A DNA stretch of 40,652 bases, from assembly GCF_002067035.1 (NCBI RefSeq), contig NZ_MVQB01000047.1, positions 1 to 40,652 of the forward strand. Reading direction: 5' to 3'. Position numbers and translations under genes: made by a program. Position 1 is the first letter of the stretch, and each line of letters starts with the position of its first letter. Of the stretch, positions 18,157 through 40,280 are shown one piece after another. The notes beneath the pieces were generated by a model. That model was not told where the DNA came from. It was given only the letters and a program-made list of their open reading frames with translations, and made no database searches. Source of the stretch: Methanoregula sp. PtaB.Bin085 (GTDB lineage Archaea; Halobacteriota; Methanomicrobia; Methanomicrobiales; Methanospirillaceae).

Positions 18157-18393
18157 TTATCGTGTCAACTGCCTTCCGATACTGACCGTGCGGAACCGGT
18201 TTTTGATGTTATCAGCATAGTAGATACCCGCAGACGATGCAGTCATCAGACCGGTATGGATCCGGGAGGGGACATTCTGGTACTGGTGAATGATACCGGA
18301 ACGGAATTCTATTTCCAGGTTTTTCTTTGCCGCATCGTAACTGACCGAACGGAGGTTGCTGGACTGAACGAGTTGCCTTTCCAAAAAAGTCAC
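18157..18393 (-). CDS. KTSC domain protein
   Basis: 78 aa covering a complete KTSC domain: SSNLRSVSYDAAKKNLEIEF, FRSGIIHQYQNVP, and an IKNRF segment near the C-terminus. This small fold occurs alone or attached to other proteins; its role is not established. The start is a GTG at 18393 with no good ribosome site, and an in-frame TTG follows. It is convergent with the superoxide dismutase gene. Confidence 0.75.
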   Translation of the reverse strand: MTFLERQLVQSSNLRSVSYDAAKKNLEIEFRSGIIHQYQNVPSRIHTGLMTASSAGIYYADNIKNRFRTVSIGRQLTR

Positions 18394-28739: not shown

Positions 28740-30251
28740 TCAGGCCCCCACCGTCTGCACATCGAGAACATTCAGCAACCCTTCGTCCAGCATGTATCCA
28801 CGGAGCCGGTCCCGGTTGCCCCGCAGGCTTTCAATGCTGTTGATGCCGGCCGCCCCCATCAGTTCGGCCAGCTCATCGGTCCATCCATGGATCAGGTTCT
28901 CGACCTGCACGGCGTTCGTCTCCGGGTCGAGACGGGCAACGAGTTCCGGTTTCTGGGTTGCTATGCCCCACGCGCATGTACCCCGGTAACAGGTGCCGCA
29001 GACCCGGCAGCCCATTGCCACAAGTGCAGACGTTCCGATATAGACAGCATCGGCTCCGAGACAGATGATCTTGGCGACATCGGCACTCTCCCGGATACCG
29101 CCGCTCGCGATGATGGAGACCTCGTTCCGAATCCCCTGCTGGCGAAGTTTTGCATCGACGCTTGCAACGGCCGCTTCGACCGGGATACCCACGTTGTCCC
29201 GGAAGACACGGGGTGCGGCACCGGTACCTCCCCGGAATCCGTCGATAACAACTGCATCCGCGCCGGAACGGGCAATACCCGCGGCGATTGCTGCGGAATT
29301 ATGGACTGCTGCAATCTTCACGAATACAGGCTTCTTCCACTCGGTTGCTTCCTTCAGGCTGCGGACCAGCTGCTTGAGGTCCTCGATACTGTAGATGTCA
29401 TGGTGCGGTGCCGGGCTGATGGCATCGCTGCCTTCCGGAATCATACGGGTGCAGGATACATCTGCACAGACCTTCTCGCCCGGCAGGTGGCCGCCAATAC
29501 CCGGCTTGGCGCCCTGCCCGATCTTGATTTCAATAGCGGCGCCGCGCTCGAGATAGTTGATATCCACGCCGAAACGGCCTGATGCAACCTGCACGATCAT
29601 GTGGTCCTGGTACGGGTAGAGCGATTCGTGGAGCCCGCCTTCCCCGGTTCCCATGAAGGTGCCGATCCTGCTGACGGCTTTTGCCATAGCCGTCTGAGCG
29701 TTCAGGCTGATCGCGCCGTAACTCATGTGCCCTATCATGATCGGGGTCTCGATCTGGAGGTTGGGGGAGAGTTTTGTCCGTAGTTCGATATCGCCATTCG
29801 GCAGTTGTGTAAGGTCAAGCGACGAGGGCTTCTTGCCGATGTAGGTCCGGAGCTCCATGGGCTCGCGGAGGGGATCGATGCTGGGGTTGGTCACCTGGCA
29901 TGCATCAAGGACAAGGTGATCGAAGATGATTGGGTACGGTTTGGCATTGCCCATGCCGGACAGGATGATCTTGCCGGTCCTTGCCTGGTTGAAGACGGCC
30001 TCGCGCACGTCCCGGGTCCAGACAGGATGGCTCCGGTAATCATTGGGTTTTTCCTCGATCTCGATGGCATCCCGCGGGCAGAATGCAATGCACCGGTGAC
30101 AGGCAACGCAGTTCCGAGAATTGATCCGGATAGCGTCGCCTTCGCGGCGAAAGACGCCATACGAGCAGTTGTCGATGCAGCGGCCGCAATTCATGCATTG
30201 TTCCGGATCGATCCTCACCCGGAATTTCAGGGGAGTACTGCCGATGCTCAT
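28740..30251 (-). CDS. gltB: glutamate synthase FMN/Fe-S subunit (archaeal type)
   Basis: 503 aa. Residues ~14-65 are a two-cluster ferredoxin (CMNCGRCIDNC, CVACHRCIAFC), absent from bacterial GltB. The FMN barrel follows: SYGAISLNAQTAMAKA, GTGEGGLHE, EIKIGQGAKPGIGGHLPGEK, then VIDGFRGGTGAAPRVF. The 3Fe-4S loop is CRVCGTCYRGTCAWG. It makes glutamate from 2-oxoglutarate and ammonia delivered by the amidotransferase subunit. Its ATG overlaps the amidotransferase stop by four bases, so the two are coupled. Confidence 0.95.
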   Translation of the reverse strand: MSIGSTPLKFRVRIDPEQCMNCGRCIDNCSYGVFRREGDAIRINSRNCVACHRCIAFCPRDAIEIEEKPNDYRSHPVWTRDVREAVFNQARTGKIILSGMGNAKPYPIIFDHLVLDACQVTNPSIDPLREPMELRTYIGKKPSSLDLTQLPNGDIELRTKLSPNLQIETPIMIGHMSYGAISLNAQTAMAKAVSRIGTFMGTGEGGLHESLYPYQDHMIVQVASGRFGVDINYLERGAAIEIKIGQGAKPGIGGHLPGEKVCADVSCTRMIPEGSDAISPAPHHDIYSIEDLKQLVRSLKEATEWKKPVFVKIAAVHNSAAIAAGIARSGADAVVIDGFRGGTGAAPRVFRDNVGIPVEAAVASVDAKLRQQGIRNEVSIIASGGIRESADVAKIICLGADAVYIGTSALVAMGCRVCGTCYRGTCAWGIATQKPELVARLDPETNAVQVENLIHGWTDELAELMGAAGINSIESLRGNRDRLRGYMLDEGLLNVLDVQTVGA

Positions 30252-31402: not shown

Positions 31403-31416
31403 TGATTGGGTGGAAC

Positions 31417-32757
31417 ATGTCTTCCAATATGTCAGCAGACGTAACAAAAACGCTCAAAAAAATCGAGGCAGATAAAGTAAAATTCATCCGCCTCCAGTTT
31501 ACAGATGTCCTTGGAATGCCGAAAAATGCCGCTATCCCGGTGGCACAGGCAGAAAAAGCACTGACGGATGGAACCTGGTTTGACGGGTCCTCGATTGAAG
31601 GGTTCACTCGTATTGAGGAATCCGATATGCTGCTGAAGGCCGATCCGGCATCGTATGCGCTACTGCCGTGGAGAACTGCGGAAGGAGACAGTGTTGCCCG
31701 GTTTGTCTGCGATGTCTATACGTATGGCAATAAACCGTTTGAAGGCGATCCGCGTTATGTTCTCAAGAAAACCATGGCCGAAGCTGCAAAGATGGGTTTT
31801 GTTTTCAATACGGGGCCCGAACTTGAGTTTTTCCTTTTCAATCTTGTCAATGGCAAGCCGACCACAGAATTTCCTGACCTTGGCGGGTATTTTGACCTGG
31901 CGCCAAACGATGCCGGGGAGAATGTCCGGCGTGAAATTGTTCAGTCGCTCACCCAGATGGGTTTTGAGATTGAGATGTCACACCACGAGGTTGCACCGAG
32001 TCAGCATGAGATTAATTTCAAGTATACTGATGCAGTCACGACTGCGGATCGCGTCATTACCCAAAAGTATGCTACACGGGCAATAGCCCTGAGACACGGA
32101 CTCCATGCTTCATTTATGGCAAAACCCATTGCCGGTATAAACGGTAGTGGCATGCACACTCACTGTTCTCTCTCGAAGGGCGGGAAAAATGCTTTCTTTG
32201 ATGCGGATTCTGAGAAAGGTCTCAGTCAGACCGCATTGTACTTCATCGGAGGTCTCCTGAAGCATGCCAAGGCTATCACCCGTCTTGCGAACCCGACCAT
32301 CAACTCGTACAAGCGGCTTGTGCCCGGATATGAAGCACCTTGTTACATATCCTGGAGTACTACAAACCGTTCAGCCCTCATCCGTGTTCCCGCTGCTCGC
32401 GGTAATGGTACCCGGACGGAATTCCGCAGTCCCGATCCGATGTGCAATCCCTACCTGACGTTTGCGTGCATGCTTGCATCCGGTCTCGACGGAATTAAGA
32501 ACAAGATTACTCCTCCCCCCAGCACCGATGTCAATATTTATCATCTTGACCAGAAGACGAGGAAGAAACTTCATATCGATATGCTTCCCGGCAGTCTCAT
32601 GGAGTCGCACCAGGCATTGCTGAAGGATGAGATTCTCTGCAATGCCCTTGGCAGCCACATGGTGGAAACCCTTGACCGTATTGCAACAGCAGAAACCGAT
32701 GCCTTCCGGCTCGCGGTCCACCCGTGGGAGCTGGACCGGTACCTGGCAACCTATTAA
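31417..32757 (+). CDS. glnA: glutamine synthetase type I
   Basis: About 446 aa from 31417 (GGTGG four bases upstream); an ATG at 31429 is the alternative and fits the TATA spacing better. It makes glutamine from glutamate, ammonia and ATP. GS-I signatures are complete: FDGSSIEGF, EFFLF, NGSGMHTHCS, NPTINSYKRLVPGYEAP, and RVPAARGNGTRTEFRSPD. The bacterial adenylylation site is not conserved: the segment reads NIYHLDQ with no NLYDLPPEE context. Regulation is therefore likely by transcription, by 2-oxoglutarate and by GlnK, as known for methanogens. It is transcribed divergently from the glutamate synthase operon, and both share the operator pair. T-rich sequence follows the stop. Confidence 0.96.
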   Translation: MSSNMSADVTKTLKKIEADKVKFIRLQFTDVLGMPKNAAIPVAQAEKALTDGTWFDGSSIEGFTRIEESDMLLKADPASYALLPWRTAEGDSVARFVCDVYTYGNKPFEGDPRYVLKKTMAEAAKMGFVFNTGPELEFFLFNLVNGKPTTEFPDLGGYFDLAPNDAGENVRREIVQSLTQMGFEIEMSHHEVAPSQHEINFKYTDAVTTADRVITQKYATRAIALRHGLHASFMAKPIAGINGSGMHTHCSLSKGGKNAFFDADSEKGLSQTALYFIGGLLKHAKAITRLANPTINSYKRLVPGYEAPCYISWSTTNRSALIRVPAARGNGTRTEFRSPDPMCNPYLTFACMLASGLDGIKNKITPPPSTDVNIYHLDQKTRKKLHIDMLPGSLMESHQALLKDEILCNALGSHMVETLDRIATAETDAFRLAVHPWELDRYLATY

Positions 32758-34156: not shown

Positions 34157-34311
34157 TACCAGTGCGCGATAGTACCTGGTAGTTTCTTTCTCAATTTTTT
34201 TTAAAAACCCTGATCTGCTTATTCCAGATGATTCACGAAGATCCGGCCAGGATTTTGAGTTTTTGTTTCCTGATACCGGATGTAGTTCAATTAGTAATAT
34301 TTTTAAATGTA

Positions 34312-34325
34312 GGAATACAACTTCC
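34312..34325. promoter_or_regulatory. NrpR operator upstream of amt2-glnK
   Basis: GGAATACAACTTCC is an exact match to GGAA-N6-TTCC, immediately downstream of the TATA-like tract. A further TTCC half-site follows directly. The surrounding 22 bases resemble those at 36152-36173. Confidence 0.82.
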
Positions 34326-34508: not shown

Positions 34509-36058
<1,550 letters not shown>

Positions 36059-36064
36059 GGACTT

Positions 36065-36087
36065 CCGGAAAATATTCCGGTTTTTTA
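36065..36087 (+). terminator. amt2-glnK terminator
   Basis: Inverted repeat CCGGAA (36065-36070) and TTCCGG (36075-36080), followed directly by TTTTTT, seven bases after the glnK stop. A second T-run (CCTTTTTT) follows within 10 bases. Confidence 0.65.
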
Positions 36088-36137
36088 TTATCCTTTTTTA
36101 CCGTTCTGTTGCATGAAGAAACCATTCCGTGATAGAA

Positions 36138-36149
36138 ATTTATTTATAC
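36138..36149 (+). promoter_or_regulatory. TATA box of the 36.2 kb gene
   Basis: ATTTATTTATAC resembles an archaeal TATA/BRE region and lies directly before the NrpR-type operator. Transcription should start near 36170, about 50 bases before the start codon at 36222. Confidence 0.6.
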
Positions 36150-36152
36150 GCA

Positions 36153-36166
36153 GGAACAATACTTCC
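36153..36166. promoter_or_regulatory. NrpR operator upstream of the 36.2 kb gene
   Basis: GGAACAATACTTCC is an exact GGAA-N6-TTCC. Its position relative to the TATA box is the same as in the amt2 promoter, and similarity extends to the flanks (AGGAA...ACTTCCTTC.TAC). Confidence 0.82.
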
Positions 36167-36221
36167 TTCGTACCTTAGATCTGTACCGCACGTGCAGATC
36201 AGGGAAAGGAAGTGGGGGAAT

Positions 36222-36581
36222 ATGGCTACTGCGCAAAAAACCAGCGGTATCGAACCGATACCGCGCTATATCATGCCGGATGCATCAATTCCGGATTATG
36301 ATGAGATCCTCGAGCAGCTCCAGGAATACCAGCGCTCGCTGATAGGATCGTCATACTACTATATCCGCGTTGAAAACGATCGGATGTTCCTGTGCCGGAT
36401 CCTGCCCGGCGGGGGAAAGATCTTCTACCATGAGATCGTGGATCACGAGAAACACGGGATATCGGAGGATGATCTGGAGGAAGCCGTCTGTCTCGATACC
36501 GGCCAGTTATCCAAAGAAGGATATCACCAGATATCACCGCATATTGAGTCGAAGCTCCGGGTTGTCCTGGACTACCCGTAA
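36222..36581 (+). CDS. uncharacterised protein in the nitrogen regulon
   Basis: 119 aa, no TM helix, no signal peptide and no recognisable domain. The sequence is acidic, with a Tyr-rich strand (SSYYYIRVENDRMFLCRIL) and an acidic helix (SEDDLEEAV), suggesting a small soluble alpha/beta protein. The start at 36222 follows GAAGTGGGGG. The longer frame (36129) would begin upstream of its own promoter and is rejected. A TATA box and an exact GGAA-N6-TTCC site precede it, as at amt2-glnK. It is therefore probably induced by nitrogen limitation. Its function is unknown; a modulator of a nitrogen enzyme is one speculation. Confidence 0.72.
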   Translation: MATAQKTSGIEPIPRYIMPDASIPDYDEILEQLQEYQRSLIGSSYYYIRVENDRMFLCRILPGGGKIFYHEIVDHEKHGISEDDLEEAVCLDTGQLSKEGYHQISPHIESKLRVVLDYP

Positions 36582-37378: not shown

Positions 37379-38539
37379 TTACTTTTCCGGTAAGTGTCGC
37401 GGCCGCTCACTGATGGAAAATGCCTCGATAACCTGCAGCGTGATCCGCGTACCGAGCGTTGGCTGGATTGTTTCGAGCCAGAGGAAGAAGCCGACCTTAG
37501 GCGGTGTTGGCCGCTCGAACCTGAAGTGCCCGTCCTTCATCTGGATCATCTTGTGATATTCCTTTTTCTGTTTCGATCGCAGGTAAATAATCAGCTCATA
37601 CCCCGGCAGATCCGTTGCTATAATTGCTTTCGAATAGAGTTTCGGGAAATCCTCCGGTGTGATGGTCCTGCCTTTCACGGTCATACCGTACGTATCGCAG
37701 ACAGCTTTGATTGCCGGAGGGAATATGCCGCCGTAGAGCACTTTTTTCACCAGTTGCCCGGTCTGGTCCGTGATGGCCGGCCGGATCCGCCCGGTTGCCC
37801 GGGAGATCTCGGAAAAGAGCCGGTTCCTGACCTCATCGTGATATCGTTTGTAATCAAACGGGTGTTTCATCGGGATATCGGTGGCCCGGATCAGCTTGGG
37901 ATGGTTCTGCGGCAGATTGTAGATGATACGCGGCCGGTAATGTTTTACCAGCGACTTGATCTGTTCGCAGGAGCTGGTGTGGATAATTGCATTTGTCCGG
38001 TCTTTTGCCAGTCGCTTGACAACGGTGTAATTGGACAGATCGAATGATGAAACCAGCAGGAACGGCGTGACCTTCTGGCCGTAGAGGTACCCGAGCAGTT
38101 TTTTCTTGTACGCGATCTCGATTTCAAACTCTTTCAGGTCCGAGGGGGAAGTGACAACTTCAGCAAACGCAACATGGTTGTCCGAATCGACGAGCAGCAT
38201 GTCGAACTCGGCGAGGTCCTGCCCGTTTCCCCGTATCGTGATATCCCCGTACTTCGAGTAGAACAATCCGTTCTGCCCGATCTTCACGTTCTCCCGCCGG
38301 TCCGGCGCATCGGCCCCTTTCATCGCAAGGTATTTGATCGTATCGGACCTTTTCGAGATGTCGAGGAACATCTCGTACACGATCGCCTCGAACCATCGTC
38401 CCTCTGCAGTCCGCATCGGTTCAATGTCAGGGGAAAAGAGTTTTTTTCTTTCATGTTTGTTCATGTGCCGCGTAGCATTGATGGCGATTGCCGCAGTCGG
38501 TTTGAAATGCCGGAAATTTGTATTGAGCCACGGGATCAT
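37379..38539 (-). CDS. conserved hypothetical protein, nuclease-like core possible
   Basis: 386 aa from the ATG at 38539 (a TTG at 38554 is upstream). It is soluble, without TM helices. The segment LAEFDMLLVDSDNHVAFAEVVTSPSD has the D-x(n)-E-x-hydrophobic layout of PD-(D/E)xK-like folds, though the usual Lys is not seen. A basic helix-rich region (IAYKKKLLGYLYGQK) follows, then VTPFLLVSSFDLS. The C-terminal part is alpha/beta. The protein is basic, consistent with nucleic acid binding. No family name is assigned; it could be an inactive nuclease fold or unrelated. It is solitary, next to decayed sequence. Confidence 0.65.
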   Translation of the reverse strand: MIPWLNTNFRHFKPTAAIAINATRHMNKHERKKLFSPDIEPMRTAEGRWFEAIVYEMFLDISKRSDTIKYLAMKGADAPDRRENVKIGQNGLFYSKYGDITIRGNGQDLAEFDMLLVDSDNHVAFAEVVTSPSDLKEFEIEIAYKKKLLGYLYGQKVTPFLLVSSFDLSNYTVVKRLAKDRTNAIIHTSSCEQIKSLVKHYRPRIIYNLPQNHPKLIRATDIPMKHPFDYKRYHDEVRNRLFSEISRATGRIRPAITDQTGQLVKKVLYGGIFPPAIKAVCDTYGMTVKGRTITPEDFPKLYSKAIIATDLPGYELIIYLRSKQKKEYHKMIQMKDGHFRFERPTPPKVGFFLWLETIQPTLGTRITLQVIEAFSISERPRHLPEK

Positions 38540-38690
38540 GATGTGTGTACACAAACTGCGCCGTAATAGTAATTAACAATCTGCACAAAAACCCGGGTCT
38601 CCCAGGACCGGACACTTTAAAAGAAAAAAAATATGGCCGGGGGAACTCCCGGCACAGACATAACGTACCAGTATGTCAGTAATGGTCGTT

Positions 38691-40280
38691 TCAGTCAAGC
38701 AGGGCGCCCATGGCCTCGTCATACCGTGCAGCCATAACATATGGGATGCCCGATACTTCGGATGCTTCCTCGGTCAGTGCCATCAGATCGTCGCGGCTGA
38801 TGGTGGAGAGCCGGAAGTTCCTGCTGCCAGCCATAAGCTGCTGGAGGCCGGTGCGGAACTTGGATGCATGGGTGTAAATACCAACTGCACCCATCGGGAT
38901 CTCCTTCATCTTGTTCCCATATTTCTCCTTGAGTTCTTCGTAGGCAACGAAGATCTCCGGAATGCTGCTGCCGTACTTGGATACGGACTTCGGGAGTTCT
39001 CCGTCCTTGATCCACTTCTCGATGTTCTTGCCCACGAATCCGGGGATCATGAGGGCACGGCCCATGCAGACCGCCTTGAAGTACGGGCTGCCCATAGCAA
39101 GTGCCTTGAAGACACCGGGCTCATCCGAGAACCCGCCGGCCATGGCGAGGTCGGGGACGCGGTATCCTTTCTTCTCGAGCTTCTGGGCGAAATCGTAGGT
39201 GAGCGACTGCAGGTAGAATGTCGGGATACCCCACTCGTTCATCATCGGCCACGGGCTCATGCCGGTACCGCCAGGAGCGCCGTCGATGGTCAGGAGGTCG
39301 ATCCTGGCTTCGGAACAGTACCGGAGGGCCATCGCGAGCTCTACCATGGAGTACGCACCGGTCTTGAGCGTGACACGCTTGAACCCGATGTCGCGGAGCC
39401 GGTCGATCTCCTCAAGGAATCCTTCCTTGGTGACAAAGCCAAGGCGCGAGTGGCGCTCGAACTCCTTGATGGCGCCGGCCTTGAACGCAGCCTGGTTCTC
39501 CTTCACGGTCGGATCGGGAAGGACAATGTAGCCGCGCTTCTTGAGCTCGATGGCGCGCTCAAGGGTCTTGACCTTGATCTCGCCGCCGATGCACTTTGCG
39601 CCCTGTCCCCACTTGAGCTCGATGGTGTCGAGGTTGTGTTTTGAAGCAACGTACTCGGCAACGCCGAGGCGGGTGTCCTCGACGTTCATCTGGACAAGGA
39701 TCTCGCCGTACTTGTTGTGGAATTTCTTATAGGTGTTGATCCGGCGATCCATCTCGGGAGATTCCTTGACCTTGTGCTTGGCGTCAAGCTTGAGGCCCGG
39801 GTCGATACCACAGACGTTCTCACCGCAGACAAGCGTAATACCGGAGATTGCTGCACCTACTGCGAAGTGCTCCCAGTTTGCCCGTGCGATCTCCGTTGAG
39901 CCGAGTGCGCCAGTGAAAATCGGAAGTTTCATGCGCACTTTCTTGTCCCAGCCGTATTCGGTCTCGGTGTCCACGGAAGAGAAAACCGCTGAGTCCGGAC
40001 CGATCTCGGTTCCTTCGGGAAGTCCCTTTGCTCCTTCAGCATATCCCTGGATATTCAGGTGCGAATAATCGATCGGGTAGTTCTTGTCGGCACCGGCCGT
40101 GATCTCCCCGAACGGGCCGGGGTAGAGAACCTCGCGGCCGCGGAATGATGATAACCAGATCTCACAGCTGCCCTTGCAGCCGTCCATACACCGGGTACAG
40201 ATACCGGAACACGGCACAACACTCCGTGACCTGTTGACAGTCCCCGTTGCTTCATTTGCATTTGGCTGTCGCAGATTCAT
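38691..40280 (-). CDS. FMN-binding glutamate synthase family protein, Cys-rich N-terminus
   Basis: 529 aa. The N-terminal region has PCSGICTRCMDGCKGSCEIW, a likely Fe-S or metal site. An FMN-barrel related to GltB follows: FTGALGSTEIARANWEH, LKWGQGAKCIGGEI, TIDGAPGGTGMSPWPMMNEWG and VCMGRALMIPG. The 3Fe-4S loop (CxxxxxCxxxxC) of true glutamate synthases is not present, and no amidotransferase or GXGXG subunit lies beside it. It is therefore a methanogen paralogue with another or unknown reaction, perhaps an oxidoreductase acting on a glutamate-like or amide substrate. GGAGTG precedes the ATG. A perfect inverted repeat lies upstream. Confidence 0.9.
   Translation of the reverse strand: MNLRQPNANEATGTVNRSRSVVPCSGICTRCMDGCKGSCEIWLSSFRGREVLYPGPFGEITAGADKNYPIDYSHLNIQGYAEGAKGLPEGTEIGPDSAVFSSVDTETEYGWDKKVRMKLPIFTGALGSTEIARANWEHFAVGAAISGITLVCGENVCGIDPGLKLDAKHKVKESPEMDRRINTYKKFHNKYGEILVQMNVEDTRLGVAEYVASKHNLDTIELKWGQGAKCIGGEIKVKTLERAIELKKRGYIVLPDPTVKENQAAFKAGAIKEFERHSRLGFVTKEGFLEEIDRLRDIGFKRVTLKTGAYSMVELAMALRYCSEARIDLLTIDGAPGGTGMSPWPMMNEWGIPTFYLQSLTYDFAQKLEKKGYRVPDLAMAGGFSDEPGVFKALAMGSPYFKAVCMGRALMIPGFVGKNIEKWIKDGELPKSVSKYGSSIPEIFVAYEELKEKYGNKMKEIPMGAVGIYTHASKFRTGLQQLMAGSRNFRLSTISRDDLMALTEEASEVSGIPYVMAARYDEAMGALLD

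Follow-up and report, generated by a model that had tools for sequence, protein, structure and literature searches.

The regulon of the repressor NrpR in methanogens comprises nif, glnA, glnK-amtB, molybdate transporters and a Na+-alanine symporter, and the published operator consensus is GGAA-N6-TTCC (PMC2723118). NrpR leaves the operator upon binding of 2-oxoglutarate (PMC11957540). The M. mazei protein sP36, a small soluble protein of 61 aa induced at low nitrogen, is required for the binding of GlnK1 to AmtB1 and represents a means of Amt/GlnK control in archaea without GlnD; within the phylum, its homologues are reported only from Methanosarcinia and Halobacteria, while some bacteria harbor them as well (PMC10714827). 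For sP26, a 23-aa protein of nitrogen-limited M. mazei cells, an interaction with GlnA1 was reported (PMC11957540). Small dedicated partner proteins are also represented by the cyanobacterial GS inactivating factors, one of them with an RNA switch, as described where they are cited in PMC11957540.

The window analysed here, a stretch of 40,652 nucleotides from Methanoregula sp. PtaB.Bin085, encodes a protein of 119 aa, termed P0001, between glnK and a second GOGAT-like gene. As for the members of the NrpR regulon, its promoter contains GGAA-N6-TTCC, NrpR genes are present in the genome and the neighbouring glnA and amt2-glnK share the site, whereas none of the published targets compared corresponds to P0001. 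Unlike the amt members of the regulon tested, P0001 has a conserved hairpin in its leader. The protein can be likened to sP36 as a small protein in an Amt/GlnK context, with an induction that is predicted only, but differs from it in length (119 versus 61 aa) and in range, the P0001 family having been found only in Methanomicrobiales. No relative was found in the genomes sampled from the Methanosarcina lineage. To sP26 (23 aa) no relation was seen. The cyanobacterial factors, compared by their description in the citing source, act as inhibitors of GS and are repressed when nitrogen is limiting, whereas P0001 is predicted to be induced.

Gene and promoter layout

The coding sequence of P0001 extends on the forward strand from an ATG at 36222 to 36581 including the stop (codons 36222 to 36578); the product has a computed mass of 13.7 kDa and a pI of 4.8. 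An alternative, longer frame with a GTG start at 36129 was dropped, because homology and ribosome-binding sites begin at 36222. Read directly from the forward strand, a BRE-like TAGAAA (36133 to 36138) and the TATA box TTTATTTATA (36139 to 36148) are followed, after four bases, by the predicted NrpR-type operator GGAACAATACTTCC (36153 to 36166, forward strand), an exact match to GGAA-N6-TTCC. Judged from the TATA spacing, transcription probably starts at about 36170, approximately 26 nt from the centre of the TATA box and within a TTCGTA block (36167 to 36172, forward strand) that hardly varies among 21 leaders. The promoter of amt2-glnK is arranged in the same way (TTTAAA at 34302 to 34307, operator GGAATACAACTTCC at 34312 to 34325), and both sites run on as TTCCTTC[G/C]TAC. 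The own TATA box, the exact operator in the geometry of amt2-glnK and the similar flanks described by the sequence-only reading are therefore all present in the sequence.

The gene adjoins glnK, as had been noted earlier: glnK (P-II; PF00543, 1.7e-30) occupies 35729 to 36058 on the forward strand, upstream of P0001, and at least 20 homologues are likewise located within approximately 2 kb of a glnK. On the same strand, amt2 (34509 to 35714; PF00909, 6e-132) is found under the twin NrpR-type promoter and glnA (31429 to 32757; PF00120, 3.2e-129) behind an exact GGAA-N6-TTCC at 31412 to 31425. With a TATA box at about 31394 and an operator ending just before the ATG at 31429, glnA appears to have almost no leader, its operator overlapping the start site. 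On the reverse strand, the second Glu_synthase-domain gene (38691 to 40280) codes for 529 aa and matches that domain in part; it is distinct from the full GltB-type gene at 28740 to 30251. Also on the reverse strand, a 391-aa ORF (37379 to 38554) without any Pfam, NCBIfam or PDB match is shared, at 70–88% conservation, by the nitrogen islands of at least 13 genomes, whether these contain P0001 or not, and is a second uncharacterised member of this island. The forward-strand segment 36809 to 37063 codes for the first 76 residues of a DUF6448 protein that seems to be cut short in the window; in G105 and related loci, the P0001 homologue is directly followed by an intact DUF6448 gene.

Five exact GGAA-N6-TTCC sites are found in the window compared to 1.2 expected, a number reached in none of 100 shuffles. 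Three of them are located at promoters (glnA, 31412; amt2, 34312; P0001, 36153), while those at 18303 and 27484 are without a TATA box in register. A pattern search for the composite W6-N4-GGAA-N6-TTCC across the 2.9-Mb genome yielded four matches, with just 34302 and 36143 in the window. These two, belonging to amt2 and P0001, are the sole matches at plausible promoters; the third lies inside a 482-aa coding sequence and the fourth has no same-strand gene downstream. The genome contains two NrpR genes (PF01995; C27:187720 and C60:203606), and one P-II gene was found, which is the glnK of the window.

Conservation of the promoter in homologues

Among the 42 homologues with readable upstream DNA, a TATA-like block, the operator and [TA]TC were found upstream of 31 when limited operator mismatch was permitted, in comparison to 1 of 249 other ORFs from the same loci (p = 2e-31, a value overstated because related sequences are treated as independent). 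Strict matches to the composite promoter were obtained for 21/42 homologues and 1/249 control ORFs. Homologues thus exist and mostly keep an NrpR-type operator, two points on which the sequence-only reading had staked its proposal. In most homologues the operator is preceded by the TAGAAA-TATA block (e.g. G081, G029, L033 and G523), and the composite promoter is also present at homologues with 25–40% identity. The amt genes of the homologue loci, serving as positive control, have the same composite site. Since 19 of the 26 homologues not placed in the nitrogen island possess the promoter, the operator moves together with the gene and does not simply result from its location. Taken from these sequence comparisons, control of P0001 by NrpR is highly likely.

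No recognisable own operator was found at five homologues (G121b, G175, G168, G002 and G035). Some operator-less members closely follow other genes and may be co-transcribed with them; G121b begins shortly after a P-II-like gene. In three diverged loci (L070, L072 and L075 in G073, G125 and G097), which were not counted among the 31, a palindrome AGAAGG...CCTTCC replaces GGAA-N6-TTCC right after the TATA box, perhaps reflecting a shifted repressor specificity. Chance alone, an arbitrary ORF next to glnK that happens to have an operator-like site, might be imagined given that the consensus fixes only eight bases, but this explanation, whose probability is practically nil, is refuted by the genome-wide rarity of the composite site, the promoter in 31/42 homologues, the occurrence of homologues in 62 genomes and a dN/dS of about 0.1.

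Protein family and structure model

Of 232 Methanomicrobiales genomes, 62 contain the P0001 family according to a profile search; a single-sequence search of 199 genomes from the order detected relatives in 45. Outside the order, no relative was found in 393 genomes of the phylum, nor on the viral contigs searched. Identity within the family ranges from 73% down to about 25%. Close pairs show a dN/dS of about 0.1, indicating purifying selection; the frame is thus translated and maintained. The most conserved positions are I41-G42, Y46, L57-C58-R59, E71, I80, D84, S105, I108-E109 and K111-L112. Five genomes (G121, G161, G514, G520 and G521) have two matching places each, while G109 retains a decayed fragment near glnK.

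The initial impression that the protein belongs to no recognised family was borne out, as P0001 gave no significant match in Pfam, NCBIfam, PHROGs or the PDB sequences. Likewise, 38 family members were without significant match in Pfam, NCBIfam and PDB, and neither P0001 nor any of the 38 matched PF00543 (P-II). As judged from its sequences, P0001 is a real, conserved and undescribed family, supported beyond what the first inspection offered and assigned by its operator to a known regulon.

AlphaFold2 models, built from an alignment of four sequences, reached a pLDDT of 70.6 for the full protein and of 79.3 (pTM 0.72) for residues 23 to 119. The predicted core is composed of a helix, three strands, a helix, a short strand and a helix (alpha-beta-beta-beta-alpha-beta-alpha), preceded by a flexible N-terminus. 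Comparison of the full model with PDB folds gave nothing usable (best Foldseek E 0.4, best VIA-align Z 3.0), and the core model (pLDDT 79) yielded a best Foldseek E of 0.5 and a best VIA-align Z of 2.7; this blank is no proof of a new fold. No obvious binding site was seen in the model. P0001 could serve nitrogen scavenging as an enzyme or as a binding protein for a metabolite, for example 2-oxoglutarate, glutamine or a nitrogen source; in favour of this, the conserved polar residues E71, D84, S105, K111 and R113 and the LCR motif at 57 to 59 might be cited. This role is improbable given the lack of a catalytic motif and of any family or fold match, the replacement of C58 in several members and a core of just 97 residues.

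Genomic neighbourhood

Most close homologues are encoded in an island of glnA, amt, glnK, gltB, the second Glu_synthase-domain gene and the 391-aa ORF, usually adjoining glnK. The distant homologues of G002, which belongs to another family of the order, and G175 adjoin glnA-amt-glnK as well. In other genera, the homologue is found among unrelated genes, with differing neighbours in g2, g4 and f3 genomes, so that there the operator alone is conserved and not the neighbourhood. In five genomes of the same genus (G149, G017, G152, G064 and G059), the island is otherwise present while P0001 is absent, which makes the gene an optional accessory that assimilation does not require.

These distributions bear on the possibility that P0001 is a low-nitrogen-induced protein which merely shares the regulator and has its task outside the assimilation enzymes, such as slowing growth or translation, or sparing nitrogen in starving cells. 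The conservation of only the operator across genera would fit such a protein, as would the fact that many relatives dispense with it although their nitrogen island is complete. The location of many close homologues and of the distant G002 and G175 in the glnA-amt-glnK island speaks against it; moreover, neither fold nor sequence connects P0001 with hibernation factors, the weak structural matches (Z 2–3) not being meaningful. This alternative is considered to have a rather low probability.

The slot between glnK and the 391-aa ORF, which is the place of P0001 in relatives, is occupied by a second, divergent P-II gene in three loci without P0001 (L156, L157 and L158 of G152, G064 and G059). A replacement of P0001 by a second P-II was considered and rejected, as P-II counts across the order give no clear opposition. 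NifD above the cut-off was found in 39/232 genomes, 13 of which have the P0001 family compared to approximately 10 expected. In the window's genome no NifD exceeded the cut-off, and only CfbC/CfbD-like genes were found. P0001 is therefore not regarded as tied to nitrogenase, and a nitrogenase accessory role was discarded as the main reading.

A hairpin in the 5' leader

Between operator and ATG, the P0001 leader contains an RNA hairpin (36173 to 36204, forward strand) with compensatory changes. The sequence-only reading had delimited the feature as 36138 to 36581; the gene within it is real, but this span includes the promoter, and the hairpin had been missed. The lower stem is formed by 36173 to 36176 and 36201 to 36204, the upper, covarying stem by 36178 to 36186 and 36192 to 36200. 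In an alignment of 21 close leaders, generated by MAFFT without use of the structure, 82% of the upper-stem cells are paired and eight of the nine pairs show changes on both sides; folding of the alignment recovered the same stem unaided. Covariation of the upper stem amounts to 0.531, or 0.575 in a core of eight pairs; shuffles gave 0.288 ± 0.030, and sliding of the partner gave no more than 0.136. Since the sequence of the arms changes while the pairing stays, the element is assigned to RNA structure in the mRNA leader. For the same reason, a second DNA-level operator was rejected as its origin.

The minimum free energy z of the window copy is -4.4, with values mostly between -2 and -5.6 in the close group, while ten amt leaders behind the same operator type have a mean z of -0.3. 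A covariance model, the training of which included the window copy, retrieved the window locus with an E of 1e-7 and the next site of the genome with 1.28. No Rfam match at E <= 1 was obtained within 36050 to 36300. The leaders of distant homologues (g2 and f3) fold no better than shuffles and have short or no hairpins, so the hairpin is claimed for the close group and isolated others.

A strongly covarying hairpin with constant spacing to the operator might also suggest that RNA is the main product, the leader or a small RNA derived from it regulating other mRNAs and the protein being secondary; nitrogen-regulated small RNAs occur in M. mazei (sRNA154, as cited in PMC9765008). The strong purifying selection on the reading frame and the position of the ribosome-binding site after the hairpin make this very improbable, and the hairpin sequence varies, unlike the seed of an antisense RNA.

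Proposed role

P0001 is very probably a real and unstudied part of the handling of scarce nitrogen in Methanomicrobiales, because relatives retain the switch even when the gene itself is found at another place. In our main reading, to which we assign a probability of about 50%, the sequence data point to a protein that is repressed by NrpR, induced when nitrogen is limiting and accessory to ammonium assimilation, with a further level of control at the RNA. The placement in the ammonium-assimilation set is based on co-regulation, on the proximity to glnK and on the example set by the nitrogen-regulated small helper proteins of Methanosarcina. By analogy, P0001 may plausibly be a partner of GlnK, Amt, GS or GOGAT, taking the part played by sP36 or sP26 in Methanosarcina. 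A counterpart of sP36 in Methanomicrobiales is plausible, since Methanosarcinia and Halobacteria are the sole lineages of the phylum with reported sP36 homologues; the more specific assignment as an sP36-like adaptor, drawn from the same analogy, is tentative.

For the accessory protein, we infer the following course, including NrpR binding, induction, protein partner and the role of the hairpin. In ammonium-rich cells, NrpR would occupy GGAACAATACTTCC between TATA box and start site and block transcription. Upon nitrogen limitation, 2-oxoglutarate would rise and NrpR would leave, giving rise to a short mRNA with a 5'-terminal hairpin. From this mRNA, the acidic 13.7-kDa protein with its flexible N-terminus and alpha-beta-beta-beta-alpha-beta-alpha core would be produced, which would most likely act as an assimilation accessory by binding GlnK, Amt, GS or GOGAT enzymes, similar to sP36 or sP26. 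It is a speculative extension that P0001 is an order-specific nitrogen-control protein with two layers of regulation (NrpR and structured leader) and an independently evolved counterpart of sP36/sP26. If true, the structured leader would tune translation or mRNA life, possibly via P0001 itself or a nitrogen metabolite.

Methanomicrobiales are major methanogens of wetlands and digesters, and to our knowledge nitrogen regulation in this order has barely been studied. The leader hairpin suggests RNA-level control in the archaeal nitrogen response, and an NrpR-controlled gene of a novel family would offer an entry point to the tuning of GlnK, Amt, GS and GOGAT without the helper proteins of Methanosarcina.
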